A stretch of 64,000 nucleotides of DNA from Syntrophus gentianae (lineage in GTDB: Bacteria > Desulfobacterota > Syntrophia > Syntrophales > Syntrophaceae): contig NZ_FOBS01000006.1 in the NCBI RefSeq assembly GCF_900109885.1, positions 1 to 64,000 on the forward strand, read 5' to 3'. Shown piece after piece: positions 7,400 to 53,100 of this stretch. The notes beneath the pieces were generated by a model that was given only the letters and a program-made list of their open reading frames with translations, was not told where the DNA came from and did no database searches. Each line of letters begins with the position of its first letter. The first letter of the stretch is position 1. The position numbers and the translations under genes were made by a program.

Positions 7400-7505
7400 A
7401 CCGGTATCCCCCCTCCCGGCATTTCCTTCCTTGACTTGAAGGCCGTCATTTCCTGCGATTGAATTTCATCTTCCGGGCCATCTTGCTGTGAATACACAGA
7501 AAATA

Positions 7506-7519
7506 GTTTAAATTTAAAC
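7506..7519. promoter_or_regulatory. 14-bp perfect palindrome upstream of the HDOD gene
   Basis: GTTTAAATTTAAAC reads identically on both strands. It lies about 140 bases before the HDOD start in an otherwise gene-free stretch (7400-7657). It could be an operator, but no regulator is known for it and AT-rich palindromes also arise by chance. Confidence 0.35.
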
Positions 7520-7657
7520 AAAAAGGGAATAGACTAAATCCCGATGAAAAATATGGTGATGGCGGACAATTTCCCTTGAAATACGATGGGCTTTCGATTA
7601 GCTTGAATATGTCAGGCAATTCCTTCCCCATAAGTCTAAACGGAGCATTTGAAGCTT

Positions 7658-34282: not shown

Positions 34283-34444
34283 CCGAAGATGAAGTTCTTC
34301 ACACTTGAGCGATATTTACAGCAAAGGGCGTGCCTCGGCAGCCACCATGCCTGGAAAGGCTTCGGGCCAAATAAGACCCCGCTTTGCCGGGATTTCCGGA
34401 AGGGGGGATGTTATCGGCCTCCTTTCTTCTCCTGTCCTGAACGC

Positions 34445-37378
34445 TTACTTTTTCACCTTCACGGCCATTGGAAAATCAATGATATTCGCGCTCATGTTCG
34501 ACGGGTTGGCCATTGTCGGCGTCTGCTGTCCATGGGTCAGTTCCTTCACCCGATCTGATATGTACTTGGCGAGGCCAAATATGGTGATCTTTCCCGTATC
34601 GCCGGAAGGGGCTTTTCCGTCCAGGCCTTCCAGTACGGCTTTCGTGAAGGCGCCATGTCCCCACACCTTGTCTTCCCGGGAGTCCTGGTAGCCCGTCGTG
34701 GATGCATAGACCACCACGGCCTTCGGCGTGTCGATCAATTCATTGACCACATCGTCAATCTTGAACGAAGGTCCCTTAGTGCCCCCCATGATGCCTCCCG
34801 ACTTGCAGGTGTCGGCGAAGACCACGATTTTTCCGGTCAGTACTTTTACGGAATCCGTGATCGATGAATAGGGCAACCCTGTTTTTTTCAGATTGTGCTT
34901 GTCGGCGTTGACCGGGAGAAAGTAGTAAATCCCCCGTTCCGTCATTCCGTGGCCGGAAAGAAAGATGACCGCGGTGTCGTTGGGGGTTGTGCTGTCTTCC
35001 AGCCATTTGAGACCGTCCAGGATATTGTCCCTGTCGGCCTCTTTTCCCGTTTTTTCTGTGAGGAGCATGCTTTTCACATCCTCATACAGGAGGCCTTTCT
35101 GCCCGTCCATGAGTTTTACGAACGCTTCAGCGTCTGCATGGGCGTAATTCAGCTTGAGGCTCTCATCCTTGTAGGTGCTCACACCAACGGCCAGGATGTA
35201 GAGCTTCGGTTTGACCGGCCTTCTGATGGCCTCTCCCTTCCACCGGAGCCGGAGGGTCGCCGGTTCACTCTTCGCGAAGCGGTTCTCCACGATGATCGCG
35301 ACTTCGGAATTCTGCTCCGGTACGGGGATGCTCATCTCCAGGGTCTCTCCTTCCCTGGGCTCATGGCGGATGCCCTTCAATCCTGCGGCCGGCAGGCCGC
35401 TGACCAGGGCGCTCAGTGCGGTGACCGGCTCTCCGCTGGGCGAGCGCACCACGAACGGCACGGTCACGGGTGAAGTCTTCACGTCGATCGTGTCGTTCCC
35501 TGCTATGGAGACCACCGGCGGGGTCCTCGTTTCGATGGACACTTTCTCCGTCTTCCTCCCGGCCTCCTTGTCCGCAAGGAGCAGGGCCTCCTTTTCGTCG
35601 AGGGTTTCGAGCACCTTGGAGATCACATCGGGGCGGTAGAACTGCTGCCTGAACCTGGAAACGGGAAAGAAATCCGCGGCCTGGTCCTTGCCGTTGTTGA
35701 TATGCCAGCCGATCAGGTCCTCGCCGCCGGATGAAGCGTCGTAATAGCCGGAGGGGGTCCAGAGGACCCAGCGCTTTCTGTCCCTGTGCGGGAAGAAGGC
35801 GAGGATCTCCTGACCGTCCCTTAACCGGTACCAGCGGATGGTGCCGTCGCCCAGGGCGGCAACGGCCAGCCGGCCATTACCGGAGATATTGACGGACCAG
35901 GCAACACCGGGGATAGGAATCGGCATTCCCCACTTCTCGACGCCGTTCCGGTCGAAGAGCCGGAGATACCACTCTGCTCCCAGGAGGAAGCACTGCCCGT
36001 CGGGGCAGACGGCAAGGCTCCGGGATTCTTCGTCTTTAGCAAGTTGGAGGGGTTTCCCTTTGAGTCTGGGCGTCAATGTACCTTCCCAGTCGCTTTCGGT
36101 AAACTCAAGCCCCTCTGCCCTTGTGAGGGGAGGGGCAAGATTGTCCGGCTCCGCTGGGTCGGGGGTCAGCAGGCGTTTGGCGATGGAGAAGCGGGCAGGG
36201 GATTTACCGAACGGGTCAAAGCCGAACTGGACGGTGGTTCCGTCATAAGAGGCAAGAAACCGCCCGAGAGTGTCCCTGAAGTCGCCGATCTCTGAACCCC
36301 TGTAATGCGTGCGGTTGCCCGCACTGTCAAGGATGCCTAAGGCAGGGTCACCTGCCCCGAAGACCATTCTGCCCTCTCTGAGGGGCAGGATCTCCATGAT
36401 CGTGTTTCCCGCGGCGGGGAGATCCTGGCGCGATCCCTTTCCTCCGTCGGCCCATCGGAGGATAGGGCAACCGTCGCGCCAGTACTTTCCTCCCGCATAG
36501 AGCGATCCGTCCGTCGACCAGGCAACGGCCATCAAATTTCCGTCATTTATGCCTATGCCGCTGGTGTCAGGCGAAAAGAGATACGAGAGATCTGTGCCGG
36601 AGAAAACATCGACTCGGGTGGAATCGTTGTAACCGACGGCGATCTTCGTACCGTCGGGCGAGAAGCGTGCGAAAGAGGGTTGTTCCCCATCCGGGGCCTT
36701 TACTGGACTGCCGATGCGCTTGAAATCCTTGTCATAGAGGCGGAGGAAGCCGTCGAACGATGCGGTGACGAGCCTGCCGTCAATGGAGAAATCGGCGTCG
36801 TAACTATCACCCCCATATTCGGTGTCTTCCTTGAAGAGCGTGTAGTCTTTCGTCTGGTAGATGCGGATGCCGTGGGGCCCGCCGAGGCACGCAACGAGAT
36901 AGCGGCCGTCCCGGGAATAGGCAAGGTGAAAGACGGCCCCGGGAAGACCCCGCAGATCTTTGGGCCGGCTCATCCGGCCGCTTGCCCGGTCGAAGAGGTA
37001 GATGGACACTTTTCCTTCCCATTCCCAGCCCGTCCAGCCGGCGGCGGCGATGGTGTTCCCATCGGGGGAGATGGCGACGGCAAAAATCTTTCCCTCATGC
37101 CCGCTTCCTATAGGGGGCCGCAGTATCCTCACGAGGCGGAGGTCCGGCAGCTCCCAGAGGCGCACCGTCTTGTCGTCCGAGGCCGTGACGAGAAAGCGAT
37201 TGGCCGCGTCCACGGCGATTCTGTTTATTCGAGCCGTGTGTATTCCTGTCTCCAGGCGCAGGCGGGGCTCCTTCGGCGGCTCGCCTGCCTTTAGTGAACC
37301 GGGGACAAGAAGCAGAAAAAGGAGGGCAAAGATCAGGGCTTTCTCTCTCTTTCCTCTGGAAATGACCGTACCGTTCAT
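34445..37378 (-). CDS. Secreted WD40 repeat-caspase (peptidase C14) protein
   Basis: 977 aa from ATG 37378, which has GGGGGAG upstream and yields a signal peptide ending GSLKAGE; a longer reading is not supported. Residues 40-500 form WD40-like blades (TASDDKTVRLWEL, AISPDGNTIAAAGW, ARFSPDGTKIAVGY). A second segment has WTPSGYYDASSGGEDLIGWH, common in WD40-caspase proteins. The C-terminal caspase domain (about 725-960) keeps the catalytic dyad His810 in LSGHG and Cys858 in ADTCKSGG. It is an exported cysteine protease with propeller-mediated recognition. It is the last gene of a four-gene operon. Confidence 0.88.
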   Translation of the reverse strand: MNGTVISRGKREKALIFALLFLLLVPGSLKAGEPPKEPRLRLETGIHTARINRIAVDAANRFLVTASDDKTVRLWELPDLRLVRILRPPIGSGHEGKIFAVAISPDGNTIAAAGWTGWEWEGKVSIYLFDRASGRMSRPKDLRGLPGAVFHLAYSRDGRYLVACLGGPHGIRIYQTKDYTLFKEDTEYGGDSYDADFSIDGRLVTASFDGFLRLYDKDFKRIGSPVKAPDGEQPSFARFSPDGTKIAVGYNDSTRVDVFSGTDLSYLFSPDTSGIGINDGNLMAVAWSTDGSLYAGGKYWRDGCPILRWADGGKGSRQDLPAAGNTIMEILPLREGRMVFGAGDPALGILDSAGNRTHYRGSEIGDFRDTLGRFLASYDGTTVQFGFDPFGKSPARFSIAKRLLTPDPAEPDNLAPPLTRAEGLEFTESDWEGTLTPRLKGKPLQLAKDEESRSLAVCPDGQCFLLGAEWYLRLFDRNGVEKWGMPIPIPGVAWSVNISGNGRLAVAALGDGTIRWYRLRDGQEILAFFPHRDRKRWVLWTPSGYYDASSGGEDLIGWHINNGKDQAADFFPVSRFRQQFYRPDVISKVLETLDEKEALLLADKEAGRKTEKVSIETRTPPVVSIAGNDTIDVKTSPVTVPFVVRSPSGEPVTALSALVSGLPAAGLKGIRHEPREGETLEMSIPVPEQNSEVAIIVENRFAKSEPATLRLRWKGEAIRRPVKPKLYILAVGVSTYKDESLKLNYAHADAEAFVKLMDGQKGLLYEDVKSMLLTEKTGKEADRDNILDGLKWLEDSTTPNDTAVIFLSGHGMTERGIYYFLPVNADKHNLKKTGLPYSSITDSVKVLTGKIVVFADTCKSGGIMGGTKGPSFKIDDVVNELIDTPKAVVVYASTTGYQDSREDKVWGHGAFTKAVLEGLDGKAPSGDTGKITIFGLAKYISDRVKELTHGQQTPTMANPSNMSANIIDFPMAVKVKK

Positions 37379-37421
37379 CGTCTTCTCCCCCTTTCCGGGA
37401 AATCTTTCCAGCAGGTGAGGA

Positions 37422-38153
37422 TTATTTTTGCTGGGCCACGTACACCACGAGATTCCCGTCATGGGACAGGGAAGGCTGGCCGCAGTTTTTTCCGTCGCAG
37501 TTGCTGATGTTTACGGGGAATTCCTGGCCGCGCTGCAGGAAGACATCGGAATAGACAAGCGTCGTCCCGCCCAGGCTTTCCTTTTGCCTCTCCTGCGGGT
37601 AGAGCTTCACCTCCCCATAGACCCGCTCCCAGCCTTGGAGATGATTCAGCATCTCCCGCTCCTCCCTGGCTTTCAGGTCCAGGGAAAGGGCGGCCACCTG
37701 GCCGCTTCGAAGGGACAAAAATCCAACGGCGTTGTCGTTACCCTTCGTCTTGAAAAGAACGAGGAGCTTGTCCGGGTCGCTTCGATCGAAGCCTAGGAGT
37801 TTGGTGATCCCCTGCGCATTCTGCATGGTTTCTTCCTGACCTCCTGCGCAGGGTATCCGGATGAGGGCGCCATCCTTGAGGGCCAGGATGTTCCGGTCCG
37901 TTGGGTCGAAAACCGGGGAGCGGTATCCTCCACCTAGTGAGATCGTCCGGCGTACATTCTGATTCAGATCGACGAGCATCAGAGCGCCCATGAGATTCCC
38001 TTCCTCGATGCCTTTCACCTGGCCCGGTGTTGCAGAAATGCCGGAGACCCGGAGGATCTTCTCGAGAACGGACTCGGCCTCAAGGGGTGTGGAGAATAAA
38101 ACGCCAAAAAGAACCATGAAAAATATTGAATGAAACAATAACCTGCTTTTCAT
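37422..38153 (-). CDS. Secreted protein of unknown function, TolB-like propeller fragments
   Basis: 243 aa. A signal peptide ends TPLEAES. Stretches such as GGGYRSPVFDPTDRNILALKDG and QPSLSHDGNLVVYVAQQK recall WD40/TolB beta-propeller strands, but a full propeller would not fit this length. One central cysteine (IPCAGG) and two near the C-terminus (NCDGKNCGQ) are present. No enzymatic motif. It lies 43 bases upstream of the caspase gene and 13 bases after the membrane-protein gene. Confidence 0.7.
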   Translation of the reverse strand: MKSRLLFHSIFFMVLFGVLFSTPLEAESVLEKILRVSGISATPGQVKGIEEGNLMGALMLVDLNQNVRRTISLGGGYRSPVFDPTDRNILALKDGALIRIPCAGGQEETMQNAQGITKLLGFDRSDPDKLLVLFKTKGNDNAVGFLSLRSGQVAALSLDLKAREEREMLNHLQGWERVYGEVKLYPQERQKESLGGTTLVYSDVFLQRGQEFPVNISNCDGKNCGQPSLSHDGNLVVYVAQQK

Positions 38154-38166
38154 TTCCAGACTCCTT

Positions 38167-39114
38167 TCACTCTGTGCGTCCCGTGCTTTCCTTCTGCTTA
38201 ACCTGGTGCGCGAAGAGCGTTCGCAGGATGGGATCGTAGGCGATGATCCTGGTTTCTTTCACATCCTTGCGGGGAAGGGTCACCAGGGCTTTCTGTTCCC
38301 CGTTGTCTGCGATGGTCCTGAGGAGATAGGTCATCCCCTCCTTCCCCTCCCAGACCAGCCAGGCGGTCTGCCCTTGACTGAGCTTCTGTTCACCCATGCT
38401 CTCCACCCTCGGCATGACCCTGTCCATGATCAGGATGCCGTAGTTCACCGGAAGCATCAGAAATTGGATCGCGGTAAGAAGCCCCAGGAGTGCCTGCAGG
38501 AACTGCGAAAATCCGGCAGGCTGTTCCTTCTTCCCAAGGATGAGGGAAATTCCCAGCGGCACAGCGCTGGCTGCCAGGAGCCCTGCGAAATAGAGGGAAC
38601 GGAGGCCGTCTTTATCGTCGAGCAGTAAAGTTCTCAGCCAGGCAGGATCAGGCAGACCATCGCAAAGCAGTAAGTTGCTGAAGAGGAAACATTGGCGCAT
38701 AAAGAACTGGATCACAATCACCGAAAAAACGATGCCTGCCAGGGTGAATACGACCCGCCCCGTTCCTGGAGAGGTAATCCATTGCCAGAAAGACGAACCG
38801 GCAATTTGAATCTTTGACCTGATCCGCAAGGGGAGCAGACGGTACGGGAGAAATCCGAGCGCGGCTGGAACGATCAGCAGGAGCAGGACAATGGGGACTG
38901 CAGAGACAAAATAGATCAGGAAATTGGCGCCGGCAAAAAGGTATCTCTCGTCCAGCACCGTCAGGTCGGTACCCACACCCAGGGCCGTCAGGTGGAACCG
39001 GAGTGTGAGGTATCCGAGGGCATAGAGCAAGAAGCTTCCAAGGGCCGTAAAGGCGGTCCATTTCCCGCTCAGCTCCATGATCTTTTCGGTAAAATCCTTC
39101 CAGCCCTGCACCAT
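38167..39114 (-). CDS. Polytopic membrane protein of unknown function
   Basis: 315 aa from ATG 39114, whose ribosome-binding site GGGAGG overlaps the end of the CHAT gene; a longer open reading runs through that gene and is rejected. About five to six hydrophobic helices are seen (starting near residues 15, 50, 65, 115, 175 and 215). A soluble C-terminal tail of about 80 residues contains AWLVWEGKEGMTYLLRTI and AYDPILRTLFAHQVKQK. No known family recognised. The two-base gap to the CHAT gene implies coupled translation. Confidence 0.75.
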   Translation of the reverse strand: MVQGWKDFTEKIMELSGKWTAFTALGSFLLYALGYLTLRFHLTALGVGTDLTVLDERYLFAGANFLIYFVSAVPIVLLLLIVPAALGFLPYRLLPLRIRSKIQIAGSSFWQWITSPGTGRVVFTLAGIVFSVIVIQFFMRQCFLFSNLLLCDGLPDPAWLRTLLLDDKDGLRSLYFAGLLAASAVPLGISLILGKKEQPAGFSQFLQALLGLLTAIQFLMLPVNYGILIMDRVMPRVESMGEQKLSQGQTAWLVWEGKEGMTYLLRTIADNGEQKALVTLPRKDVKETRIIAYDPILRTLFAHQVKQKESTGRTE

Positions 39115-39116
39115 GG

Positions 39117-41696
39117 CTACCTCCCCATCAGGGTAAAGGCCCCCCAGAAGTAGGGGTGACCGTATTGAGGATTTGCCTTGACCGCGACCAGGGCGCGGCG
39201 GGCCGCCTCGTTCAATGGCTGTTCCCTTGCTTCCCGGTAGAATGTTTCCATCCAGAGGGCTGTGGAAGCGGAATCCACCTCCCACGAGGACAGGACCAGG
39301 GCCTTCGCTCCCGCATATAATAACGCCCTTGTCATGCCCAGGATTTCGTTGGCGTGCGTGGCCCTGGCGCGACCTGTTTCGCAAGCACTGAGAACGACCA
39401 GCCGGTTCTTTTCCAGGGGCAGGCCGAACATCTCGGCGGCTGTGAGCCTGCCGTCGTCAGGACCGCCAGCGCCGAGCTGGACGTAGGAAAGGAGCGGGCT
39501 TTGGGCATCGAACCTGCCGTGAGCCGAGAGGTGTAGGATTTCATAATGGCCCGCCCAGGCCTTGATGTCCGTCTCCCGGGCAAGCTGTTCTACCACCACC
39601 TTGCTCCTGCCGGGAAAGAGCCCGGCGATGGATTGGACCTCCTCCTGCGCCTTCGGTATTCCCGGGTCGGCGACCGCCAGCAGCGTTCCGCGCATCTGAC
39701 CGCTCTGGGAAAAGGAAGCCAGGACTGTTGCGCTGGGGGCATAGGTGATCCGGAAATCTTCTCCGAGATACCGATTGTCCGCAGGGTTCTGGAATACCTG
39801 AAAGGGGATGTAGGCAAGGTCTTCGTGGGGAATCACAACCACAGCGTTTGTCTTGAACCATTGCCTGGCGGGCTGCACCAGGAAGAGATACAATTCCTGC
39901 GCACTCCTGGTGTCGAATGGCCGGTCCCCGCGCGACAGGGACTCCCGCAGCGCCCCGACTTTCCGGGCGAGTTCCGACCGGGGGAGAAACACGTTCCGTA
40001 CGTGGACCGCATCGCCGCTGATGTGCCACAGAATGACCCCATGCTCCAGAATCAGATACTGGAGAACCTCGTAGCCGTCACGCTTCATCGCCTCTTGCAG
40101 CGCCTTGAGTGACACCGGCTCCGAGACCACCAGGGACCGCGTTTTGGGCGCCTCTCTTCCCAGGCGGTCAACAAGCAGACGATACGCTGACTCAGTCTTT
40201 TTCAGTTCCTGCCCCGTCCGGGAAAGGACATCCGGCGACTGTTCCGTGTCCGGTCTGCTGTTCTCAAGAAACAGGTTTGTCTGGAGTCGGGCGATCTCGG
40301 CCTGGGCCTTCTGCACCGCACCGTATAAGGCCTGATCCCGGTCTCCAGTGAGATAAAGAGATTTGTTCGCAAGAAGGTCTGCCATGCCCCGTGAACGGGA
40401 CCGTTCCATCAGGTCAAAGGCCTCTGCCTGCCTGCCGCGCTCAAGGAGGTGCAGGATGGGCGTGTAGTAGAACTCGATCTTGTCTTCGAAAAAGGTCCCG
40501 CGGCTCTGTTCGTCGCGGAGCCTGCGGCGGTCCCGCTCAAGTAACTCAACCGCCTTGAGATAGGATTGAAGGGCGGAGTCGCGATGACCCTGCATGTCAA
40601 AGAGCAGCCCCTCGATATAGAAGCTCCGTGCATCTCCCGTCTTCATCACGCCTGACTGTTGGATCCAGGCCAGCAGTCCCGGGGGAAAATCAAGGCCGGT
40701 TGACAGGAACTTGTCACTGACCAGGACATCGCCGGGCTTCCGGGGATGAAACAGGGAAGTTTCGGCAGTCAAGGCATGGCTGCGCTCCTGGGAGCTGATC
40801 AGTTCCTTGCGCATGTCTGCATTTCTGAGAAAGGATCTGGCATAACCGGCGAGGCCCTGGTATCCGCGGTCCTGGGCAATGGCAAGCGCCCGGGAGTAAT
40901 CTTCCTTGGCGCGGGCAAGGGCTTCATAGCATGACTGAAAGGTCCTATCGTAGTCGCATTTCTCCGCGAATTTGAGGTAAATGTCTGCGCGGTCAAGGTA
41001 GGCATAGAGGAGAGACGTCTGGTCATCTACCTTCTGGGCGATAGAGAAGGCCCGGCTGAGTGTGTCGAAGGCCGGGATCAGTTGGCCCTGCGCGATCAGG
41101 ATCTCAGCCTTTAGATCCAGTGCGTTGAAGAGATCCACGGGCTCATTAGAGAGTTCAATGGCCCTTTCGGCATGCGAGAGGGCATTTCCATATTCTCGAA
41201 GCCCCAGAAATTCCGTTCTTGCCTGCCCGATGAATGCTTTGGCCTGATAGGCCCTGTGCCCCGATTGACGGGCCAGTTTTTCCCCTTCCTGATAACGACC
41301 GAGAGCATTTGCCCACTGATTCTGCATCCGCTGTATATCCCCTAATTTGATGAGGCAGAGGGCTGCATCCGGCAGCTTCCCGGACCGTTGGAATTCATTC
41401 AAACTTTGAAAAAGTTCTCGCTCGGCTTGGTGCAGTTCAGGCAGAAGGGTCTTCTGATCTCCGGTTTTGCGGAAATGTTCGAGATAATTTTCGATGCGCT
41501 GGATTGCCCGTTTCTGTATCGCTGCTGCCTGGCTGTCGGCCGAAGTCGCACAGCCTGGCGCCAACATGAGGGTCGTCATCAGGATGGCCAGTACAAACAG
41601 GACCCGCGACCGAAGAAAGCCGTGTTGTCCGCAGTCAAGGGGATTCTCTGACGTCCAGACGGACTTGACGCGTCGTTTTCCGGGGATATTCCTCAT
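39117..41696 (-). CDS. TPR-CHAT protease lipoprotein
   Basis: 859 aa from ATG 41696, chosen because AAGGGAGG lies seven bases upstream. A long N-terminal hydrophobic segment ends in the lipobox LAPGC (Cys49), so the protein is predicted to be lipid-anchored outside the cytoplasm. TPR-like helices fill about 75-450 (ALCLIKLGDIQRMQNQWANAL, QAKAFIGQARTEFLG). The C-terminal CHAT domain (about 570-859) has the dyad His726 in HLSAHGRF and Cys772 in VLSACETGRA, and ends PYFWGAFTLMG. CHAT proteases are separase/caspase relatives. It is the first gene of the operon. Confidence 0.9.
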   Translation of the reverse strand: MRNIPGKRRVKSVWTSENPLDCGQHGFLRSRVLFVLAILMTTLMLAPGCATSADSQAAAIQKRAIQRIENYLEHFRKTGDQKTLLPELHQAERELFQSLNEFQRSGKLPDAALCLIKLGDIQRMQNQWANALGRYQEGEKLARQSGHRAYQAKAFIGQARTEFLGLREYGNALSHAERAIELSNEPVDLFNALDLKAEILIAQGQLIPAFDTLSRAFSIAQKVDDQTSLLYAYLDRADIYLKFAEKCDYDRTFQSCYEALARAKEDYSRALAIAQDRGYQGLAGYARSFLRNADMRKELISSQERSHALTAETSLFHPRKPGDVLVSDKFLSTGLDFPPGLLAWIQQSGVMKTGDARSFYIEGLLFDMQGHRDSALQSYLKAVELLERDRRRLRDEQSRGTFFEDKIEFYYTPILHLLERGRQAEAFDLMERSRSRGMADLLANKSLYLTGDRDQALYGAVQKAQAEIARLQTNLFLENSRPDTEQSPDVLSRTGQELKKTESAYRLLVDRLGREAPKTRSLVVSEPVSLKALQEAMKRDGYEVLQYLILEHGVILWHISGDAVHVRNVFLPRSELARKVGALRESLSRGDRPFDTRSAQELYLFLVQPARQWFKTNAVVVIPHEDLAYIPFQVFQNPADNRYLGEDFRITYAPSATVLASFSQSGQMRGTLLAVADPGIPKAQEEVQSIAGLFPGRSKVVVEQLARETDIKAWAGHYEILHLSAHGRFDAQSPLLSYVQLGAGGPDDGRLTAAEMFGLPLEKNRLVVLSACETGRARATHANEILGMTRALLYAGAKALVLSSWEVDSASTALWMETFYREAREQPLNEAARRALVAVKANPQYGHPYFWGAFTLMGR

Positions 41697-41990: not shown

Positions 41991-43247
41991 CTAACGCGAC
42001 GAATGTTCCTTCATCTTCCGGTCGTAGGCGAGCAGGGCGGAGGGGAAGGGGGAAAGGACCCGCCGGGCGACCCCCTGGGTGAAGGATATTGCCAGTCCGT
42101 AATTGGTGACCGGCACCTGGGCCTCTCGGGCCTGCTGCATCCGGCTGAGCATTTCCCGTCGGGTCAGCATGCAGCCGCCGCAATGGATGATCAACTTGTA
42201 TTCCCGGAGGTTTTCCGGGTAATCCCGTCCCGCCGAGACATCCGTGCGGATGTCGCCCCCCACGTATTGCTTCAGCCAGCGGGGGATCTTGACCCGGCCG
42301 ATATCGTCCTGGAGGGGGTGATGGGAACAGGCTTCGGCGATGAGGACCTTGTCCCCGGATTGCAGGGTTTCGATCTGGGCGGCCCCCTCGGCTGCCGCGG
42401 CAAGATCGCCCTTCTGACGGGCAAAAAGGATGGAAAAGGTGGTCAGGGGGATGGCCGGGGCCACATCGGCGGAAACCTTGAGAATGGCCTGAGAGTCACA
42501 GATCACGACATCCGGGAGCCGGTTCAGCAGGGCCAGGGTGGCCGGCAGTTCCCTTTCCTTGACGATGAGAACTGCCGCATCATTGTCCAGGGCGTCGCGG
42601 ATCGTCTGGACCTGGGGGAGGATCAGGCGGCCCTTGGGAGCCTGCAGATCGATGGGTACAACCAGAACGGCCAGTCCCCCGGGAGGAAGGAGATCGCCCA
42701 CCAGGGACGGCGGCTGTACGAAGTCATCGGGGGCGACTTCCAGCAACTGTCGCTTCAGGGCATCCACAAAGGCGTCACGCTTTTGAACGTCGAAACTGGA
42801 GACCGGCACGACACGGGAGGTTTTTGTCTTGAGTTCGCGGAGAAAGGTCTCTGAGGGTTGATCCAAATCGATCTTGTTGATGACGACAAGAACAGGGACC
42901 TTCCGTTTGTCCATTTCCGCCAGAACTTCCTCTTCGTAAGTCCCCCAGACATCCGGCTCCGTCACGAGGATGGCGACATCGGCGCGATCGAAAATCTTTT
43001 CCGTTTTCTTCAGACGCAACGAAGCAAGTTCCGAGATGTCGTCCAGCCCTGCGGTATCCAGAAACAGGATTGGTCCCAGGGGAAGCAGCTCCATGGCTTT
43101 TTCCACGACATCCGTCGTGGTTCCCGCTACAGGGGAAGTGATGGCGATATCCTGACCGGCCATCATGTTCAGAAAACTGGATTTGCCGACATTGGTGCGT
43201 CCCAGCAGGGCGATGTGCAGACGGTTTCCCTTGGGGGTAGTATCCAT
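41991..43247 (-). CDS. hydF: [FeFe] hydrogenase maturation GTPase HydF
   Basis: 418 aa. The GTPase domain (1-170) has GRTNVGKSSFLNMMAG, PVAGTTTD, LDTAGLDD and NKID. The dimerisation domain follows. The cluster-binding domain carries the family pattern CSHH (about 305) and HCGGCM (about 356), the Cys-x-His and HCxxC ligands. HydF is the scaffold on which HydE/HydG assemble the 2Fe subcluster before transfer to HydA. hydE and hydG are not in the window. The gene sits 116 bases after the [NiFe] maturation protease gene, not with the [FeFe] operon. Confidence 0.95.
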   Translation of the reverse strand: MDTTPKGNRLHIALLGRTNVGKSSFLNMMAGQDIAITSPVAGTTTDVVEKAMELLPLGPILFLDTAGLDDISELASLRLKKTEKIFDRADVAILVTEPDVWGTYEEEVLAEMDKRKVPVLVVINKIDLDQPSETFLRELKTKTSRVVPVSSFDVQKRDAFVDALKRQLLEVAPDDFVQPPSLVGDLLPPGGLAVLVVPIDLQAPKGRLILPQVQTIRDALDNDAAVLIVKERELPATLALLNRLPDVVICDSQAILKVSADVAPAIPLTTFSILFARQKGDLAAAAEGAAQIETLQSGDKVLIAEACSHHPLQDDIGRVKIPRWLKQYVGGDIRTDVSAGRDYPENLREYKLIIHCGGCMLTRREMLSRMQQAREAQVPVTNYGLAISFTQGVARRVLSPFPSALLAYDRKMKEHSSR

Positions 43248-43363
43248 TTTAGCTGATCCTCAAAGAGATTTTTAAATGTTGATTCGATAGAAGTGACCTG
43301 ATCATTGCCAAAAAAGGGGGATAAAGGCAACGAATTTTTACTGGGGGAGAGGGACTGAAATTT

Positions 43364-43909
43364 TCAAACCGATCTTTTTTCTGTCGGAGTTTCCCTTGAA
43401 GCTGGAGGAGAAAGGACATCCTCGTCGAGCAGGTCCACGATTCGATTGACAGCTCCTTCCACAAGAGAAAGGGTCCCCGGGGAGAGGTTGCGATGAAAAT
43501 CGAAGTTGCAGCCTAAAATCGAAATCAGATGGCCCTCCATATCCCGACCGCGGAGAGCCTTGAAAAAGGCCAGCAGGGTTGCCGGGCTCAGGTGGTGCGT
43601 GAACGTCAGGCCGGCGTCGTTAGGGCGTACAGGACTGTAGTGCAGTTCATCCAGGGCCGGGTCGACATGGGCGTCTACGAAGATCACCTGTTCGTATTCG
43701 TCAAGCAGATCGATCATTTCCGGGGCAAGCTGAACGATGAAGATGGAATCCGCAAGGCGCCCGAGTTCCTCTAGGCCGGTTTGGCCCTCCTCCAGCGCTT
43801 TCTGTCCCCATCGCTTCCGGAAGGCATTTATGACGTGATAGGCAACGCCGTCGTCGGCGCGGTCCAGGTTGCCGAAGCCGATCAGCAGGGTTCGTTTTTT
43901 TTGTTTCAT
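43364..43909 (-). CDS. [NiFe] hydrogenase maturation endopeptidase (HyaD/HoxW family)
   Basis: 181 aa from ATG 43909. A longer reading overlaps hoxH and the terminator and is rejected. The N-terminal GFGNLDRADDGVAYHVINAF matches the nickel-binding Asp motif of M52 proteases, and VIFVDAHVDPALDELHY the second metal site. TFTHHLSPATLLA supplies a further His. It removes the C-terminal peptide of the large subunit once nickel is inserted. No clear ribosome-binding site. A strong hairpin separates it from hoxH. Confidence 0.88.
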   Translation of the reverse strand: MKQKKRTLLIGFGNLDRADDGVAYHVINAFRKRWGQKALEEGQTGLEELGRLADSIFIVQLAPEMIDLLDEYEQVIFVDAHVDPALDELHYSPVRPNDAGLTFTHHLSPATLLAFFKALRGRDMEGHLISILGCNFDFHRNLSPGTLSLVEGAVNRIVDLLDEDVLSPPASRETPTEKRSV

Positions 43910-43934
43910 CGGGGGTTGTCCAGGAGATAAAAAA

Positions 43935-43976
43935 TAAAGAAAAGGGGAAATCGCGTTGCCTTTCCCCTTTTCTTTA
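43935..43976 (-). terminator. Strong intrinsic terminator between hoxH and its maturation protease gene
   Basis: A perfect 16-bp stem, TAAAGAAAAGGGGAAA with TTTCCCCTTTTCTTTA, encloses a ten-base loop. On the minus strand it is followed by TTTTTTATC. It lies 22 bases after the hoxH stop. It would end the structural-gene transcript or allow only partial read-through to the maturation genes. Confidence 0.85.
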
Positions 43977-43998
43977 TCGACGGTTGCGTCTGCAAATT

Positions 43999-45432
43999 TC
44001 AGCGGACGATGCGGTCCAGCAAGGTGCCGTCTGCGGCAATCAGCGAGATGTCCAGAGGCATCTTGCCAATGGCGTGGGTAGAGCAGGAGAGGCACGGATC
44101 ATAGCAGCGGATCGCCGCCTCCACCCGGTTGAGCATTCCTTCGGTGAGCTCGTTGCCTTTCACGAAGGCCTTCGCCACCGCTCCCGATGCCGTATGCATG
44201 GCCCAGTTGTTGTGTCCCGTGGCCACAATGAGGTTCACCCTCGTCAGAAGTCCGTTTTCATCCGTGCTGTAATCGTGGATCAAGGTTCCGCGGGGTGCTT
44301 CGATGACGCCTATTCCGTGACCGGGGATCTGCAGATTCGCCGGATAGTTGCGGACGTCACTGGAGAGAATATCCGAATCATCCAGTAACTGGCCCACACG
44401 TTCGAGGCTGTAGAGCACTTCGATCATCCTGGCGTAGTGGTAGTAGAGGGAGCCCTCGATGGGTTTGCCGCCGTTGATGGTACGGAACTGCTTGAATTCT
44501 TCGTTGGCCAGGGGGGTGCCGATCTTGTCGATCACGTTCATCCGTCCCAATGGGCCGACGCGGTAGAATCCCTGCGGGAATCCCTGTTTGCGATAGTAGG
44601 GATGTTTCAGGAACGACCAGGGTTCCACATGCTCGGCGATATGCGAGAGGTAGGCTTCGTCTTTAAACTGGGCCAGGTAATTCCCCTTGGCGTCCTTCAT
44701 GCGGATTTCCCCGTCATAGAGCTGCAGGCCGCCTTCCTCGTCGACCAATCCCATGTAGTTGGAGGGGAAGGAGGCGAAGGTGTCGGCAAGTTCCTTGTTC
44801 GAGTCCAGCCAGCCCTTGGCGATGATGATGGCCAGCTTGCCGATCTCGATCATTTCGGGAAGTTCTGAGGCGATGGCGTCCCGGTCTGCAATGCTCAAGG
44901 GGGCGTTGACGCCTCCGGGGACAGCGAGATTGGGGTGGATGCGTTTGCCCCCGCCCATCCTTTCAATGATCTGCTGCCCGTAGCGGCGCAGGGCAACGGC
45001 CTTGAGGGCGAGTTCCGGGTTTGCCTTGATGATCCCGAGAACGTTGCGCTCCGCTGGATCGGCGTCGAAGCCCAGCAGCAGATCCGGGGCGGCGAGATGG
45101 AAAAAGTGCATCCCGTGGGACTGGATCATCTGGCCCATGTGCATCAGTTCCCGCAAAAGATTCGCCGGCCGGGTGGGCTCCACGCGGGCGACACGGTCAC
45201 AGGCTTTGGCGGCCGCCAGGTGGTGGCTCACGGGACAGATCCCGCAGATGCGCTGGGTGATCTGCGGCATTTCGAAATAGGGGTGCCCCTCGGTGAACTT
45301 TTCCAGTCCGCGGAACTCATCCACATGGAAGTAGGTCTGTTCGACATCCCCCTGATCGTTCAGATGAATCGTGATACGCCCGTGGCCTTCGATTCTCGTC
45401 ACGGGCTCGATGGTTATTTTGCGAGCGCTCAT
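43999..45432 (-). CDS. hoxH: [NiFe] hydrogenase large subunit, HoxH-like (group 3)
   Basis: 477 aa. The proximal nickel-binding motif RICGICPVSHHLAAAKACDR lies near residue 61, and the distal DPCLSCSTHAIG near 448. Cleavage after the His of STH would release the final peptide AIGKMPLDISL and beyond. N-terminal VTRIEGHGRITIHL is typical of cytoplasmic group 3 enzymes. It forms the H2-activating site with the small subunit upstream. All four cysteine ligands are present, so a functional enzyme is expected. Confidence 0.95.
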   Translation of the reverse strand: MSARKITIEPVTRIEGHGRITIHLNDQGDVEQTYFHVDEFRGLEKFTEGHPYFEMPQITQRICGICPVSHHLAAAKACDRVARVEPTRPANLLRELMHMGQMIQSHGMHFFHLAAPDLLLGFDADPAERNVLGIIKANPELALKAVALRRYGQQIIERMGGGKRIHPNLAVPGGVNAPLSIADRDAIASELPEMIEIGKLAIIIAKGWLDSNKELADTFASFPSNYMGLVDEEGGLQLYDGEIRMKDAKGNYLAQFKDEAYLSHIAEHVEPWSFLKHPYYRKQGFPQGFYRVGPLGRMNVIDKIGTPLANEEFKQFRTINGGKPIEGSLYYHYARMIEVLYSLERVGQLLDDSDILSSDVRNYPANLQIPGHGIGVIEAPRGTLIHDYSTDENGLLTRVNLIVATGHNNWAMHTASGAVAKAFVKGNELTEGMLNRVEAAIRCYDPCLSCSTHAIGKMPLDISLIAADGTLLDRIVR

Positions 45433-45444
45433 GGCTTTTCTCCT

Positions 45445-45990
45445 CTAGTCATACTTGAAGTATTGGGGCGGAAAGACGACGGGCGTATGCCCGGCGAGCA
45501 GCTCCGACAGGACATGGAATATCGCGTCGGCGCTCGGGGGACATCCGGGGATGAAGAGGTCCACCTTCACCACCTTGTCGATGGCGACCACCTCGTCCAG
45601 AGGGACGCCGAGCTCCTCAGAATCGGGAATGAAACCGTCCACGGTGCTTTCCGTCTCTATGTAGGCGCGCTTCAATGCCTCCTGGGTGCCGCAGAAATTG
45701 CGCATGGCCGGGATATTCCCGAAGGTGGCGCAATCTCCGAGAGCGATGAGGATCTGGCAGCGTTCACGCATCATTTTGGCGACTTCCACATTATGGGTAT
45801 TGCAGATGGCCCCCTCGAGAATCCCCACGGTGACGCCTTCTTTCGGCGGGTGCTTCAAGTCCGTGATCGGACTCGATGTGAATTCCACCAGTTCCATCAG
45901 CTTGACGATGCGATCATCGATATCCAGAAAGGACATGTGGCATCCGGCACAACCGGCCAGCCAGTCTGTAGCGATCTTGACCTTTGACAT
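45445..45990 (-). CDS. hoxY: [NiFe] hydrogenase small subunit, HoxY-like
   Basis: 181 aa from ATG 45990, with GGAG eight bases upstream. ATDWLAGCAGCHMSFLDID supplies the first two ligands of the proximal [4Fe-4S] cluster. LEGAICNTHNVE and LFIPGCPPSADAIFHV supply the others. No signal peptide, so it is cytoplasmic like group 3 small subunits. It lies between the NuoG-like and large-subunit genes, 12 bases from the latter. Confidence 0.93.
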   Translation of the reverse strand: MSKVKIATDWLAGCAGCHMSFLDIDDRIVKLMELVEFTSSPITDLKHPPKEGVTVGILEGAICNTHNVEVAKMMRERCQILIALGDCATFGNIPAMRNFCGTQEALKRAYIETESTVDGFIPDSEELGVPLDEVVAIDKVVKVDLFIPGCPPSADAIFHVLSELLAGHTPVVFPPQYFKYD

Positions 45991-46004
45991 GGATGAGTCT
46001 CCTT

Positions 46005-47789
46005 TCACTCCAATTCCTTCGCGGCGCAGGCCGAAATTTCAGCGAAGGATGCGCCGAGGTTTTTCCCCAGTCTGTCAGCCAGCAGAGAGAGAATTTCCCA
46101 GTCAGGCCGGGCTTCTCCTGCGGGTTCGACGGCCTTGGCCGCCATTTGTACGGAACCTTCCGTATTGGTCAGGGAACCGGTACGTTCCGACCAGATGGCT
46201 GAGGGGAGCACCACGTCCGCTCGATTGAGAAGAGGAAATGCATAGCCGGCCTGAACGATGACGAAGGCCTCTTTATCGACTTTTGCCAGAACGTCATCTC
46301 CACCCTGGTCCTGCTCGCCAAGCAGGGCGTAGAGGACCTTGGCCGTTGATGCCTGGAAACCGTTATTCAGACCGAATTTTGCGGCGGCCCGTGAATTGAC
46401 GCCGGGTTCAAGGGCCACGAAACGGGCTTTCGCCCCGAGTTTCTTGAGCGATTGTGCGGCTTCTGCCGTGAGGCCCGTACCGTAGAGGACAGCGACGCTC
46501 TCGACTCGATCGGCGATCTCAATCGCCCCGGCAAGATCTCCTGACTTGAAGGTGGCGTCGGCGAATGGACGAAGTCCATTTTCTCCGTCATCGACCACAA
46601 TCAACCGCACCCCTTTGTCAACAAGACGCTTGACCATAAAGGAAGAAACGGGCTGGTCCTTTGCCGGATCAGCGCCGATCAGGAGAATCAGGTCGCTTTC
46701 GCTGAGAGTGCTGAACGCACCGGGCTTCTCATCGAACAGATCCGGAACGGCGCCGGAGAGAAGGCCGACGTTTGCGGCGCTGAGTTGTTCCTTGAACAGA
46801 CGGCTGGCCAGGTACAAGGCCTCATTGGTTGCATCGCCCGAGACCAGCAACCCGACCTCTTTGGCGTCTGCCTTGTTGATATGGTCCGCGATACCTTGAA
46901 GCGCCTCTTCCCAGGTGACCGGTTCCAGCTTTCCCTGACGGCGGAGCATCGGTTGAGTGGTGCGCTTACGCTGATCATAGAGCGGTTCAAAACGTCCCAT
47001 TTTGCAGAGCAACCCGCCGTTGACCGGCGCATCCCAATCGCCTTCGATGCGAAGGACATTGCCGGCCCGCGTCACGATGGAGGTTCCGCAGCCGACGCTG
47101 CACTTGTTGCAGATGCTCCTGGTCCGTTCGGTCTGGGCGTCTCGCCCCATGAAAGAACTGCGCGGGTCAGAAAGAGCCCCTGTCGGGCAGATCTGCAGGC
47201 AGGTTCCACAGGAAATGCAGGTGGACTTGACATAGGGGAGGTTGGCGTCGCAGTTGATCATGGAATCGGCTCCACGTTGACGCAGACCCAGGGTGTGATT
47301 GGCGACGAGTTCGTTGCAGGCCCGTGCACAGCGCTGACACAATACACAGCGATTGTGGTTCATGATGAAGTAGCCCCGCGAGGCATCCAGGGGAAAGGGT
47401 TTGGTGAAAGTGGGATAGAACCAGTGATCGATTCCGTAGCGGTACCCCAGGTTCTGCAACTCGCAGTCCCCGCTTGCTTCGCAGAATGGGCAGAGATGAT
47501 TCCGCTCGGAAAACAGCATGCCGAGGATGAACTTCCTGGCCGACACCACCCGAGGAGATTCCGTTTCGATCTCCATGCCTTCCGCGACAGGAAACGTGCA
47601 GGCGGTTTGGAGGCTTCGCTGTCCCTTGATTTCAACGACACATATCCGGCATGCTCCAATCGGATGGAGCTTCCGGTGATGACAGAGGGTGGGGATGTCA
47701 ATACCCGCCTGCTGGGCCGCTTCGAAAATCGTGGCTCCCGGTGGCGCAAAGACCTCACTGCCGTTGATAATGCTTCGTATTTTTACCAT
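46005..47789 (-). CDS. NuoG/HoxU-like iron-sulfur subunit of the [NiFe] hydrogenase
   Basis: 594 aa from ATG 47789 (GAGGAGG upstream). The N-terminal plant-type [2Fe-2S] domain (about 1-80) is followed by the CxxxxxC-H motif region HLCPFCEASGDCELQ, two [4Fe-4S] ferredoxin clusters (NRCVLCQRCARACNE, CISCGTCLQICPTGAL), and a Fe4S4-Mo domain (CNKCSVGCGTSI). A molybdopterin-oxidoreductase-like tail without obvious cofactor motif ends the protein. It should carry electrons between a diaphorase and the hydrogenase. No NuoF/NuoE partner is in this operon. Confidence 0.92.
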   Translation of the reverse strand: MVKIRSIINGSEVFAPPGATIFEAAQQAGIDIPTLCHHRKLHPIGACRICVVEIKGQRSLQTACTFPVAEGMEIETESPRVVSARKFILGMLFSERNHLCPFCEASGDCELQNLGYRYGIDHWFYPTFTKPFPLDASRGYFIMNHNRCVLCQRCARACNELVANHTLGLRQRGADSMINCDANLPYVKSTCISCGTCLQICPTGALSDPRSSFMGRDAQTERTRSICNKCSVGCGTSIVTRAGNVLRIEGDWDAPVNGGLLCKMGRFEPLYDQRKRTTQPMLRRQGKLEPVTWEEALQGIADHINKADAKEVGLLVSGDATNEALYLASRLFKEQLSAANVGLLSGAVPDLFDEKPGAFSTLSESDLILLIGADPAKDQPVSSFMVKRLVDKGVRLIVVDDGENGLRPFADATFKSGDLAGAIEIADRVESVAVLYGTGLTAEAAQSLKKLGAKARFVALEPGVNSRAAAKFGLNNGFQASTAKVLYALLGEQDQGGDDVLAKVDKEAFVIVQAGYAFPLLNRADVVLPSAIWSERTGSLTNTEGSVQMAAKAVEPAGEARPDWEILSLLADRLGKNLGASFAEISACAAKELE

Positions 47790-48104
47790 ATCTTGCTCCT
47801 CCTCTTTTATACGATAAACAGGAGACGCCGGTAGGCCCATTTATACGGCTCGGGTCATTCCGGGACAAAACCCAAAACTATTTTAAAAAATAACACCTTA
47901 TAATGAAAATATCAATATCGATAAAGTCGCCTTATTGAAATATTGTCAAGAAAACTGAACCTGCATCAAGAAAAATAAAAAAGCGTTGATAACATCAGTG
48001 ATGCCGTCAGTCAGATGAAGCGGAAGAAAGGAAGGGGGAAAATGACAACGATCGGGTTTCTGGAATGTCCGGATTTCGCCAGGGTCAGAAAAATTTTTAA
48101 GGAA
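47790..48104. promoter_or_regulatory. Upstream region of the [NiFe] hydrogenase operon
   Basis: No reading frame was found here. On the minus strand a TTGACA lies near 47945 with a weak -10 (CTTTAT) 17 bases further, inside an AT-rich stretch. TATC-N6-GATA inverted half-sites at about 47911-47924 could bind a regulator. The leader to the NuoG-like ATG would be about 130 bases. Confidence 0.35.
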
Positions 48105-48129
48105 GGCACGGAAAAAGGATCTCCGTGCC
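48105..48129 (-). terminator. Second (distal) terminator hairpin after hydA
   Basis: GGCACGGA and TCCGTGCC form a perfect 8-bp stem with a nine-base loop. On the minus strand it is followed by TTCCTTAAAAATTTTTC, moderately T-rich. It lies 20 bases beyond the first terminator and may act as backup. Confidence 0.6.
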
Positions 48130-48144
48130 CGGGATGAGAAAAGG

Positions 48145-48174
48145 AAGGGGTTGACCGGTTTCGATCAACCCCTT
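48145..48174 (-). terminator. Intrinsic terminator of the [FeFe] hydrogenase operon
   Basis: AAGGGGTTGA pairs with TCAACCCCTT (10-bp perfect stem, ten-base loop) and is followed on the minus strand by CCTTTTCTC. It lies eight bases after the hydA stop codon. Confidence 0.75.
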
Positions 48175-48182
48175 GGAAAAAA

Positions 48183-50009
48183 TCAAGAAACTTTCTGGGG
48201 TTCTGCTTCGTGATGATGTTTGGGCATCTCCGTCCCGCCCAGCTTCACGTCCTTGTGGGGGAGCGCAATCCCCCGTTTCGTGTAATGGGTGTGAAGGAGA
48301 TGATGCGAAATCTCCCCGTTGGGTTCTCCAAGGAAGGTTTCATAAGCCTTTTTGATTGAGGGGTTTTCATGTGACTGACGAAACTCCTGAACCTGGCAGT
48401 CATCCGTATAAAGCGCCAGGGAGCGGAGTTCACGGATCTCGTTGGTCGTCGGGATCGGTCCGCCGCCGCCGGCGATGCAGCCGCCCGGGCAGGTCATGAA
48501 CTCGATGAAGGCCCAGTCCGCCTCGCCGGCCCGGATCTTGTCGAGAATCTTCCGGGCATTGGCCATGCTGTGAGCGACCGCCACCTTGACGTTGCCCAGA
48601 TCGCCGACTTCAAGGGCCGCTTCTTTCACGCCATCGAGACCACGGACGGGCGTGACGTTGAGATCCGGGAGGTTCCCGCCCGTTACAACGGCATAGACCG
48701 TTCTCAGGGCTGCTTCCATAACGCCGCCCGTGGCGCCGAAGATCGTCGCTGCACCGGTGTACTCACCCATAGGCGCATCGAAGCTTTCATCGGGCAGGTT
48801 GACGAAATCAATGCCCGCTTCCTTGATCATGCGGCCGAGTTCTCTTGTTGTGAGCACGTAGTCCACATCACGGAAACCCGAGGCGCACATTTCCGGCCGC
48901 TGACACTCGAATTTCTTGGCCGTACAGGGCATGATGGAGACCACAACGATGTCCTTGGGATCGATTCCCGCCGTCTTGGCATAATAGGTCTTGGCCATGG
49001 CGCCGAACATCTGTTGCGGCGATTTACAGGTGGAGAGATGGTCCAGCAGGTCCGGATAGAAGTGTTCGCAGAACTTGATCCAGCCGGGGCTGCAGGAAGT
49101 GATCATGGGAAGCTTTCCGCCGGTCTTGACCCGGGTCAGGAGTTCCGTTCCTTCTTCCAGAATGGTGAGGTCGGCGGCGAAATTGGTATCGAATACCTTG
49201 TCGAAGCCCAATCGCCTCAGGGCCGCGATCATTTTTCCCGTTACGAGGCTGCCGGGGGGCAGGCCAAGCTCTTCACCCAGGGTCGCGCGGACGGCGGGCG
49301 CCTCTTGAACGACCACATGCTTGGTGGGGTCTTCCAGGGCTTTCCAGACCTTGTCCACATCGTCCTTCTCATAGAGGGCTCCGACGGGACAGACCATGAT
49401 GCACTGGCCGCAGGCGATGCAGTTCGTTTCCAGGAGCGGAAGATCGAAGGCCGGGGAGACTTTGACGTCGCTGCCGCGCCAGGAGGGCGTCAGCACGTTT
49501 ACGGTCTGCACCTGCTCGCAGACGGTCACGCAGCGGTGGCAGTTGATGCACTTGCGGCTGTCGCGCACGACGGAGGGGCTTGACGTGTCGATCATGTCCT
49601 CTTTGGGGAAATCGGGATAGGGGAAACGCACTTCCCGCACCCCGGCGACCTCCGCCACTTTCTGGAGTTCGCAGTTGCCATTGCGGATGCAGTGGTTGCA
49701 CTCCGTGGGATGGTTGGACAGCAGCAGTTCAACGACCATGCGACGGGCCATTCGAACCCGCTCCGTATTGGTATGGACAACCATGTTGTTGGCTGCTGGA
49801 AAGACACAGGAAGCCACGAGACTTCTCTGCCCTTCCACCTCGGTGACGCAGACGCGGCAGGCCCCGGGAAAGTGATTCAGTTCCTGGTAGGCGCAAAGCG
49901 TGGGAATCTTGATCCCCAGCTTCTTTGCTGCCTGCAGGATGGTCGTTCCCGGTTCTACCTGCACACTTTGGTTATCGATGATGACGTTTAACATTCCATT
50001 TGAAGTCAT
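48183..50009 (-). CDS. hydA: NADH-linked [FeFe] hydrogenase catalytic subunit HydA
   Basis: 608 aa. An N-terminal [2Fe-2S] domain (about 5-80) is followed by the His-Cys3 site (HPTECNHCIRNGNCELQ, 100-116) and two [4Fe-4S] clusters (CINCHRCVTVC, 154-164; CIACGQCIMVC, 197-207). The H-cluster domain has L1 TSCSPGW (304-310), L2 MPCTAKKFE and L3 FMTCPGGCIAGGG. The C-terminal small-subunit-like tail ends in His-rich PKHHHEAEP. It evolves or takes up H2 with the NuoE/NuoF partners encoded upstream. The second residue of the L1 cysteine pair is Ser. Confidence 0.95.
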   Translation of the reverse strand: MTSNGMLNVIIDNQSVQVEPGTTILQAAKKLGIKIPTLCAYQELNHFPGACRVCVTEVEGQRSLVASCVFPAANNMVVHTNTERVRMARRMVVELLLSNHPTECNHCIRNGNCELQKVAEVAGVREVRFPYPDFPKEDMIDTSSPSVVRDSRKCINCHRCVTVCEQVQTVNVLTPSWRGSDVKVSPAFDLPLLETNCIACGQCIMVCPVGALYEKDDVDKVWKALEDPTKHVVVQEAPAVRATLGEELGLPPGSLVTGKMIAALRRLGFDKVFDTNFAADLTILEEGTELLTRVKTGGKLPMITSCSPGWIKFCEHFYPDLLDHLSTCKSPQQMFGAMAKTYYAKTAGIDPKDIVVVSIMPCTAKKFECQRPEMCASGFRDVDYVLTTRELGRMIKEAGIDFVNLPDESFDAPMGEYTGAATIFGATGGVMEAALRTVYAVVTGGNLPDLNVTPVRGLDGVKEAALEVGDLGNVKVAVAHSMANARKILDKIRAGEADWAFIEFMTCPGGCIAGGGGPIPTTNEIRELRSLALYTDDCQVQEFRQSHENPSIKKAYETFLGEPNGEISHHLLHTHYTKRGIALPHKDVKLGGTEMPKHHHEAEPQKVS

Positions 50010-50104
50010 AATGTATCCTTCTCCTATCGAAAGGCGCTCCCGCCGGCTAAAGCCGCAAGGCTGACGATCCGGCGGGGAGCCGCCGAAACTTTGAGATTAC
50101 AAGA

Positions 50105-53100
50105 TCAGATCTTCGCGTCGCAGCGGATGCAGCGCGTCGCTTCCTTCATGGCCAAAGCCCGGGTGTAGCCCACTTCGACTTCCTGGAAATTGGCCTTTCT
50201 GGCAGAGGCTTCCAGTTCAGGCATCCGTGCCATGGGGAATTCCTCCGTATCTTCATCGATAATGAAGGGGATGGTGATCTCTTCTTCCGGAGGAGGCGTC
50301 CAGGCCGGTTCGCCGTTCTTCTTGCGGATGGAGGCGTCGATGTCATCGGCTGCCTGATGCCCCGCAGCAATCGCCTTGATGACCGTGCTGGGACCGGTGA
50401 CGGCGTCGCCGCCGGCGAAGAACTTCGGGTTCGTCGTTCCGGAACGGAACCCATCGGTCCACACGTCGAAGGTGGACCACTTGTTCACGGCAACACCGCT
50501 TTCCTGAGGCACAAAGCTCAGATCCGGAGTCTGGCCGATGGCGGCGATGACGGTAGTCACGTCGAGGGTGAAGTTTGAGCCCTCGATGACCACAGGCCGC
50601 TTGCGTCCACTGGAGTCGTAATCGCCAAGCTTCATCCGCTGGCATTCGATGCCCGTGACCTTTCCGTCGGACCCGATGACCTTCAGAGGCGCAACGAGAT
50701 ACTCGATTTTGATGCCTTCATGCTCAGCCGCTTCAATTTCTTCCGCGGCGGCAGGCATGTCTTCCCGGAGACGGCGGTACAGAATGGTGACGTCGGCTCC
50801 AAGCCTTGACGCCGTGCGGGCGGCATCGATGGCGGAGTTTCCACCGCCGATGACGGCAACCCTGTCACCCAGCGATTTTCCACCGCCTGTCCAGGCCTTT
50901 TCATTCATGTTGAAGTCGCGCAGGAACTCGACGCCACCCCATACGCCCTGGAGGTTTTCGCCCTCGACGCCCATTCGCTGACTCTTATGGGCGCCCGGCG
51001 CCAGGTAGACCATATCGAACTCTTGATTTACGGCATCCCAGGAGATGTCCCGTCCAACCCGGACACCGCACTGGATCTCCACGCCGAGTTTCCGGATGTC
51101 ATCGATCTCCTTGCCGAGGATTTCCCGCGGCAGGCGGTAGGAGGGGATTCCCCAACTGAGCATTCCGCCAGGTGTGGGAAGCTCTTCGAATACCTTGACG
51201 CTGTAACCGCGCAGGGCCAGATCCCTCGCGCAGGTAAGACCCGCGGGACCCGCTCCGATCACGGCGACTTTCTCCTTACGGGTCACGGCGACGGGTTTGA
51301 TCTCGGGCCGAGGCGCCTGGTCGGTGATGTAGCGCTTCAGGAACTTGATGGAAACAGGCTCATCGAGGAGACCCCGACGGCACTTGGACATGCACTGGTG
51401 GTCGCAGACCCGGCCGCAGGCTGACGGGAAGGGGTTCGTTCTCAGCATCACCTTGTAGGCGTCCTCGAGGCGATCGTCGCGGACCAGGGCGACATAGGAG
51501 GGAATGTCCATGCCGATGGGGCAGGTGTGCTGACAGGGCGACTTGAAGAGGGCCGAGCAGACGGCGGCGCGGCATTTCTTGTCGCGGATGTGCTCCTCGT
51601 ATTCATGCCGGAAGTACCGGAGGGTTGAAAGCAGGGGATTGGGGGCCGTCTGACCCAGGCCGCACAGGGCGGCGTCCTTGATCGTGTAGGCCATGGATTC
51701 GAGCAGTTCGATGTCGCCTTCTTTCCCATCGCCGTTGCAGATGTTGGTCAAGATTTCGAGCATCCGCTTCGTGCCTTCGCGGCAGGGGGTGCACTTGCCG
51801 CAGGACTCTTCCTTGCAGAAGTCCATGAAGAAGCGGGCCATATCCACGGCGCACTTGTCCTCGTTCATGACGATCAATCCGCCGGAGCCCATGATGGCGC
51901 CCAGTTCGGCAACCTTTTCGTAATCGACGGGGGCATTGAGGTGCTCTACAGGGATGCAGCCGCCGGAGGGACCGCCGAGCTGCGCCGCCTTGAACTTCTT
52001 GCCGCCGGGGATGCCGTTGCCGATGTCATAGATGATCGATCCCAGGGTCGTTCCCATGGGGACTTCCACGAGACCCACGTTGTTGACGTCACCGGTGAGG
52101 GCGAAAACCTTCGTGCCTTTGGATTTCTCGGTGCCCACACTGGCGTACCAGTCGCCACCGCGCAGCATGATCTGGCCGATGTTGGCCAGGGTCTCGACGT
52201 TGTTCAATACGCTGGGTTTTCCCCAGAGGCCGGCTTCGGCGGGGAAGGGCGGTCTTGGACGGGGCATCCCGCGCTTTCCCTCGATGGAGGTCATCAGCGC
52301 CGTTTCCTCGCCGCAGACGAAGGCGCCCGCGCCCTGGTAGATCTCGAGGTCGAAATTGAAGCCCGTATCCAGGATGTTTTCACCGAGCAGCCCCATCTCC
52401 CGGGCCTGTCCGATGGCTACGTTGAGGCGGTGGATGGCCAGGGGATACTCTGCACGGCAGTAGATGTAGCCTTTATTCGAGCCGATGGCCTTGGCGGCGA
52501 TCGTCATTCCTTCCAGTACGGCATGGGGATCCGCTTCGAGGACGCTACGGTCCATGAAGGCCCCGGGGTCGCCTTCGTCGGCGTTGCAGAGCACATACTT
52601 GACATCACCGACAGAACGCTGGGCGAACTGCCACTTGAGGCCCGTCGGGAACCCGCCGCCACCGCGGCCGCGCAGGCCGGATTTGAGAACTTCCTGTACG
52701 ATGTCTTCGGGAGTCATTTCGGTAAGGGCCTTGGCCAGGCCGGCGTAGCCGTCACGGGAAATGTATTCCTCGATGTTTTCCGGATCGATGAGACCGCGGT
52801 TGCGCAGTACCCGGAGATCCTGCAGGGCGAAGAAGGGGATTTCCTGCATGGTGGGGATTCCCTCTTCCTTGCCGGGTTCCTTATAGAAGAGCCTCTCGAG
52901 GGGGCGACCTTTTATAAAGTGTTCCTCGACGAGTTCGGAGACGTCCTCCGACTTGATGTTCATATAGACGATGCCCTCGGGATATACGACCATGATGGGA
53001 CCCATGGCGCAGAAACCGTTGCAGCCCGTCTCAACAACCTTGATTTCATCGGAAAGGTTGCGCTTATTGAGCTCGTCGACAAGGGCCTCCTTGACGGCAA

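Follow-up and report, generated by a model that had tools for sequence, protein, structure and literature searches.

Between positions 34445 and 41696 of the window (the whole 64,000-nucleotide stretch of DNA analyzed here), four adjacent genes on the minus strand follow one another at intervals of only 2, 13, and 43 bases in the ORF calls (Table 1)—an arrangement that reproduces, in ORFs, spacing, and strand, the four co-directional genes of the original prediction.

Table 1. Features of the four-gene cluster, in window coordinates
Feature	Position	Strand	Description
P0001	39117..41696	-	859 aa; hydrophobic signal residues 32-50, LAPGC, TPR region, CHAT 597-859 (H726, C772)
P0002	38167..39114	-	315 aa; orphan inner-membrane protein with 5 TM segments, N-in; C-terminal tail of ~90 aa predicted to be periplasmic
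P0003	37422..38153	-	243 aa; orphan secreted protein, Sec signal peptide (PLEA/ES)
P0004	34445..37378	-	977 aa; N-terminal WD40 propeller region after a Sec signal peptide; Peptidase_C14 at the C-terminal end (729-958)
Weak terminator-like hairpin	34376..34393	-	~50 nt past last gene P0004; total count of such hairpins in the region not above shuffles

Strong Shine-Dalgarno sequences precede all four starts (GGGAGG, GGGGAGG, AAGGAG, and GGGGGAG), and the codon scores of all four ORFs are host-like in frame and negative out of frame; on these two grounds, P0002 and P0003 are very likely genuine genes. The intergenic gaps leave no room for promoters, and from the tight spacing and ribosome binding sites we infer that the four genes are co-transcribed. 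Upstream, a gap of 294 bases separates the start of P0001 from hydF. Across the three same-genus genomes, hydF keeps 85-89% identity but the genes after it are different, indicating that the operon sits in a variable site. The hydF gene itself belongs to a hydrogenase cluster (window 41991-53164) that also includes genes for subunits of NiFe hydrogenase and of molybdopterin/NuoG-like type, an FeFe hydrogenase, and a NuoF-like fusion. A plasmid or phage origin for the operon was considered and found to be unsupported: P0002 and P0003 have no convincing match in plasmids, the plasmid relatives of P0001 all fall below 30% identity among the matches listed, and the one phage contig with any match has only a weak C14 hit.

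Both middle genes conform to what had been predicted, a polytopic membrane protein and a secreted protein. The five hydrophobic segments of P0002 show an N-in/C-out charge pattern that would leave its tail of ~90 residues outside, and the Sec signal peptide of P0003 is clean by hydropathy and motif. Neither protein has a significant Pfam match or could be assigned to a family, and no convincing homologue of either was found in 149 genomes of the order, in 395 of the phylum (~520 others in all), or in 72,556 plasmids; the matches rising above background (E 0.003-0.009) were fragments of 56-81 residues, with in-frame stops in two of three. No relatedness was detectable between P0002 and P0003 or between P0003 and P0004, and the AF2 model of P0002 made without an alignment was poor (pLDDT 49). 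For P0003, a gasdermin-like or propeller identity was considered and rejected, given that it had no family, no PDB match, and a single-sequence AF2 pLDDT of 38. Nor was there a gasdermin gene beside the proteases—P0002 and P0003 lack any PADLOC or significant Pfam match, and P0003 has a Sec signal.

Two proteases with predicted export

P0001 matches TPR and CHAT families in Pfam, the latter (PF12770) at 5.8e-54 and 183.9 bits against a curated cut-off of 24, and its catalytic dyad is intact, with H726 in LSAHG and C772 in SACETG. A single hydrophobic segment (residues 32-50), preceded by a long n-region, ends in LAPGC, a lipobox-like sequence in which Cys would be the +1 residue and the Pro at -2 is atypical; P0001 is likely exported, and its lipidation is less certain than its export. 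Of the predicted lipobox-bearing TPR-CHAT protease, then, the TPR, CHAT, and dyad stand and export is likely, while the form of the putative lipobox leaves lipid attachment in some doubt. Calls of export and topology were made from hydropathy and motifs; comparison with relatives offers stronger support than any single sequence: among 33 TPR-CHAT relatives, which are the best-scoring ones and not a random sample, a hydrophobic, exported-type N-terminus was found in 33 and a lipobox in 28.

P0004 has WD40 (1e-22) and Peptidase_C14 (1.1e-11, 45.3 bits against a cut-off of 21.4) matches in Pfam, a clean Sec signal peptide by hydropathy and motif, and an intact dyad, H810/C858, with D856 two residues before the Cys in a DTCKSG motif. 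Orthologues occur in ~20 genomes, mostly at 35-54% identity, from Deltaproteobacteria, Syntrophaceae, Thermodesulfovibrio, and others. In the alignment, H810, D856, and C858 are identical in every family member covering those positions, and a signal sequence is found in all aligned orthologues with a complete N-terminus, followed in most complete orthologues by a common motif close to EPPKEPILRIETGMHT. In metacaspases, the pocket for basic residues is formed by an Asp at the second position ahead of the catalytic Cys, and because P0004 has this metacaspase-type Asp we predict Arg/Lys specificity; it is probably a soluble periplasmic orthocaspase, cleaving after Arg or Lys. Orthocaspases are described as cutting after positively charged residues (PMC6426788).

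Both dyads thus lie intact at the positions originally given for them (H726/C772 and H810/C858), the secreted WD40-caspase is borne out by its Pfam domains and by a signal kept in complete relatives, and both proteases are predicted to lie outside the cytoplasm, with signal peptides conserved in the relatives of each. What did not survive is the claim that export sets this TPR-CHAT protein apart from cytosolic kin. On sequence comparison, the exported form is usual, not exceptional, among the TPR-CHAT and WD40-caspase relatives examined, and a contrast with cytosolic Csx29 does not carry over to this TPR-CHAT family.

Gene neighborhoods in relatives

An expectation of conserved synteny for the four-gene set was not upheld, as the set was found in one genome only: the same four genes were adjacent in none of the order and phylum genomes searched, nor in the three same-genus genomes, and P0002 and P0003 were absent beside P0004 orthologues at every retrieved locus. 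This is an outcome that the original prediction had itself named as counting against it. The neighbors that do recur near P0004 orthologues are a secreted DUF4384 protein (L003, L006, L008, and L072 by Pfam, L080 by sequence search, and L007 by eye), a CHASE2-cyclase (L006, L082, and L086), FecR (L006), and further caspases (L079 and L080). At L082 (1199-12748), a TpsB and TpsA two-partner secretion pair is followed directly by the WD40-caspase orthologue and the CHASE2-cyclase, an arrangement that suggests an envelope signaling cluster. At L072 (5347-14652), two WD40-caspase paralogues of the same family flank DUF4384-type genes, with a TPR-CHAT lipoprotein ~2.8 kb further on, and the WD40-caspase orthologue at L079 has as its neighbor (5282-7666) an exported caspase with a fused CsgG-like domain.

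We assessed the proximity of the two protease families using Pfam annotations in 40 nearly complete genomes drawn evenly from the order, leaving the window out of the pair count. These genomes contain 48 CHAT genes, and those having a CHAT gene contain 68 C14 genes; 6 CHAT genes had a C14 gene no more than 10 kb away, against 1.7 expected (Poisson P ~0.008, an approximate value in view of clusters and contig breaks, with cases that are not independent). An earlier co-location count on score-ranked lists (5 against 2.2 expected) had been unconvincing. CHAT and caspase genes are, in sum, mildly clustered in the order. One pair, at L109 (4845-9676), consists of WD40-C14 lipoprotein and TPR-CHAT lipoprotein genes on the same strand with a 4-nt overlap—a simpler dual-protease operon that is perhaps a better experimental model than that of the window. 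At L126, the other tight pair, a TPR-CHAT gene is followed after 255 nt, on the same strand, by an exported C14 gene; in each of the two pairs, both members are exported. The caspase subtype differs between pairs and the partner genes are unrelated; the CHAT and caspase theme recurs, and the four-gene operon does not.

A candidate envelope proteolysis module and its alternatives

The reading we prefer, held with about even confidence, is that the cluster encodes a lineage-specific, co-transcribed module for periplasmic or envelope proteolysis, drawn from two known exported protease families. In its favor we counted the tight spacing and strong ribosome binding sites, the export signals in relatives of both proteases and in the TPR-only paralogue, the invariant catalytic residues of the WD40-caspase family, the envelope genes at WD40-caspase loci, and the recurrence of exported CHAT and exported caspase neighbors; against it, the occurrence of the set in one genome, the orphan status of P0002 and P0003, the modest proximity enrichment, and the Pro at -2 in the putative P0001 lipobox. 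In such a module, P0001 and P0004 would both act outside the cytoplasm, P0001 being held at the membrane either by lipid attachment or by a signal anchor left uncleaved, and the TPR and WD40 regions would recognize a periplasmic partner or damage cue, directing both cysteine proteases. The periplasmic tail of P0002, together with P0003, would most likely provide regulators or substrates; other clan-CD protease loci have a substrate gene adjacent, and by this analogy the two orphans would probably serve as partners or substrates.

The protease cascade of the original prediction, in which one clan-CD enzyme would switch on the other by cleavage in the periplasm, would fit a single operon whose two proteases are both exported with intact dyads, as well as the other closely spaced CHAT/C14 pairs of the order, L109 and L126. 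The caspase subtype in such pairs, however, varies from genome to genome, a CHAT neighbor is missing beside most WD40-caspase orthologues, and caspase and CHAT enzymes are able to act singly, so we consider the cascade quite unlikely. The signal relay through the membrane protein that was suggested along with it is speculative. Very doubtful, likewise, is the proposal that the exported TPR-CHAT lipoprotein and WD40-orthocaspase act on each other, or on a membrane and a secreted partner, in a two-step periplasmic scheme; if true, a two-step clan-CD protease cascade would amount to an extracytoplasmic bacterial analogue of a caspase cascade. Fratricide, in which the proteases would leave the cell as secreted effectors against neighboring cells, has been suggested for extracellular metacaspases (Asplund-Samuelsson 2012; PMC3501461) and would be in keeping with the one WD40-caspase orthologue in a two-partner secretion locus (L082), but the operon of the window is without an outer-membrane secretion gene, a recognized immunity gene, or an export domain beyond Sec, making this reading highly improbable. 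It is also conceivable, if somewhat unlikely, that chance or selfish assembly placed two separately acquired exported proteases and two orphan ORFs after hydF with no common function. The unrelated genes after hydF in all three same-genus genomes, the orphan status of P0002 and P0003, and the modest co-occurrence statistic favor such an assembly; gaps without promoter room, uniformly host-like codon usage, and four envelope-directed products speak against it.

Relation to known protease systems

Bacterial caspase and CHAT proteins are discussed mainly as intracellular death or defense proteases. In the order, most of the relatives examined in both families are exported, and their genes tend to occur close to one another and to envelope genes; whether clan-CD proteases have a periplasmic role can therefore be put to the test, and the operon, with its two candidate partner proteins, offers a compact system for doing so. 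On the caspase side, Asplund-Samuelsson et al. 2012 (PMC3501461) reported that prokaryotic metacaspases have WD40 more often than any other domain as a partner, and also described N-terminal helices that are probably signal peptides, a possible extracellular role, and operons with several metacaspases, including in Deltaproteobacteria. P0004 resembles these WD40 orthocaspases/metacaspases in its WD40 and C14 domains, His/Cys dyad, Asp before the Cys, and putative signal peptide, and shares with the orthocaspases of that study (PMC3501461) their abundance in Deltaproteobacteria and the occurrence of several caspases per operon. It differs from other WD40 orthocaspases in the order of its subfamily—signal peptide, WD40, C14—and in having a CHAT gene and two orphans alongside. 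A published operon of an exported CHAT protein with an exported caspase was not found in the open-access literature.

On the CHAT side, P0001 shares TPRs, a CHAT protease domain, and a His/Cys dyad with Csx29 of type III-E CRISPR (Craspase), but it scores 26.4 against an NCBIfam cut-off of 300 bits and is predicted to be exported; no Cas7-11-like gene was present among the P0001 neighbors examined. Membrane anchoring of a CHAT protein is already known from HetF of cyanobacteria (PMC8406250), which, like P0001, combines CHAT and TPR with one membrane segment; unlike P0001, HetF has an N-terminal CHAT, a role in the divisome and heterocyst, and no caspase partner. P0001 also resembles the exported TPR-CHAT lipoproteins of the order (for example, L043-L070), which have the same arrangement of signal, TPR, CHAT, and dyad motifs, with a lipobox to set beside the lipobox-like LAPGC of P0001; the TPR region of P0001 is divergent, and the genes of these relatives mostly stand alone or are found next to other caspases. 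Within its own genome, P0001 is the only CHAT gene, and there are two C14 genes. A paralogue of P0001 (36% identity) that consists of TPR without CHAT and carries a signal sequence of its own is found on contig C12 of that genome (L071, 3944-4726); it adjoins RTX-repeat genes and a transposase-like ORF and is perhaps a truncated or inhibitory copy.
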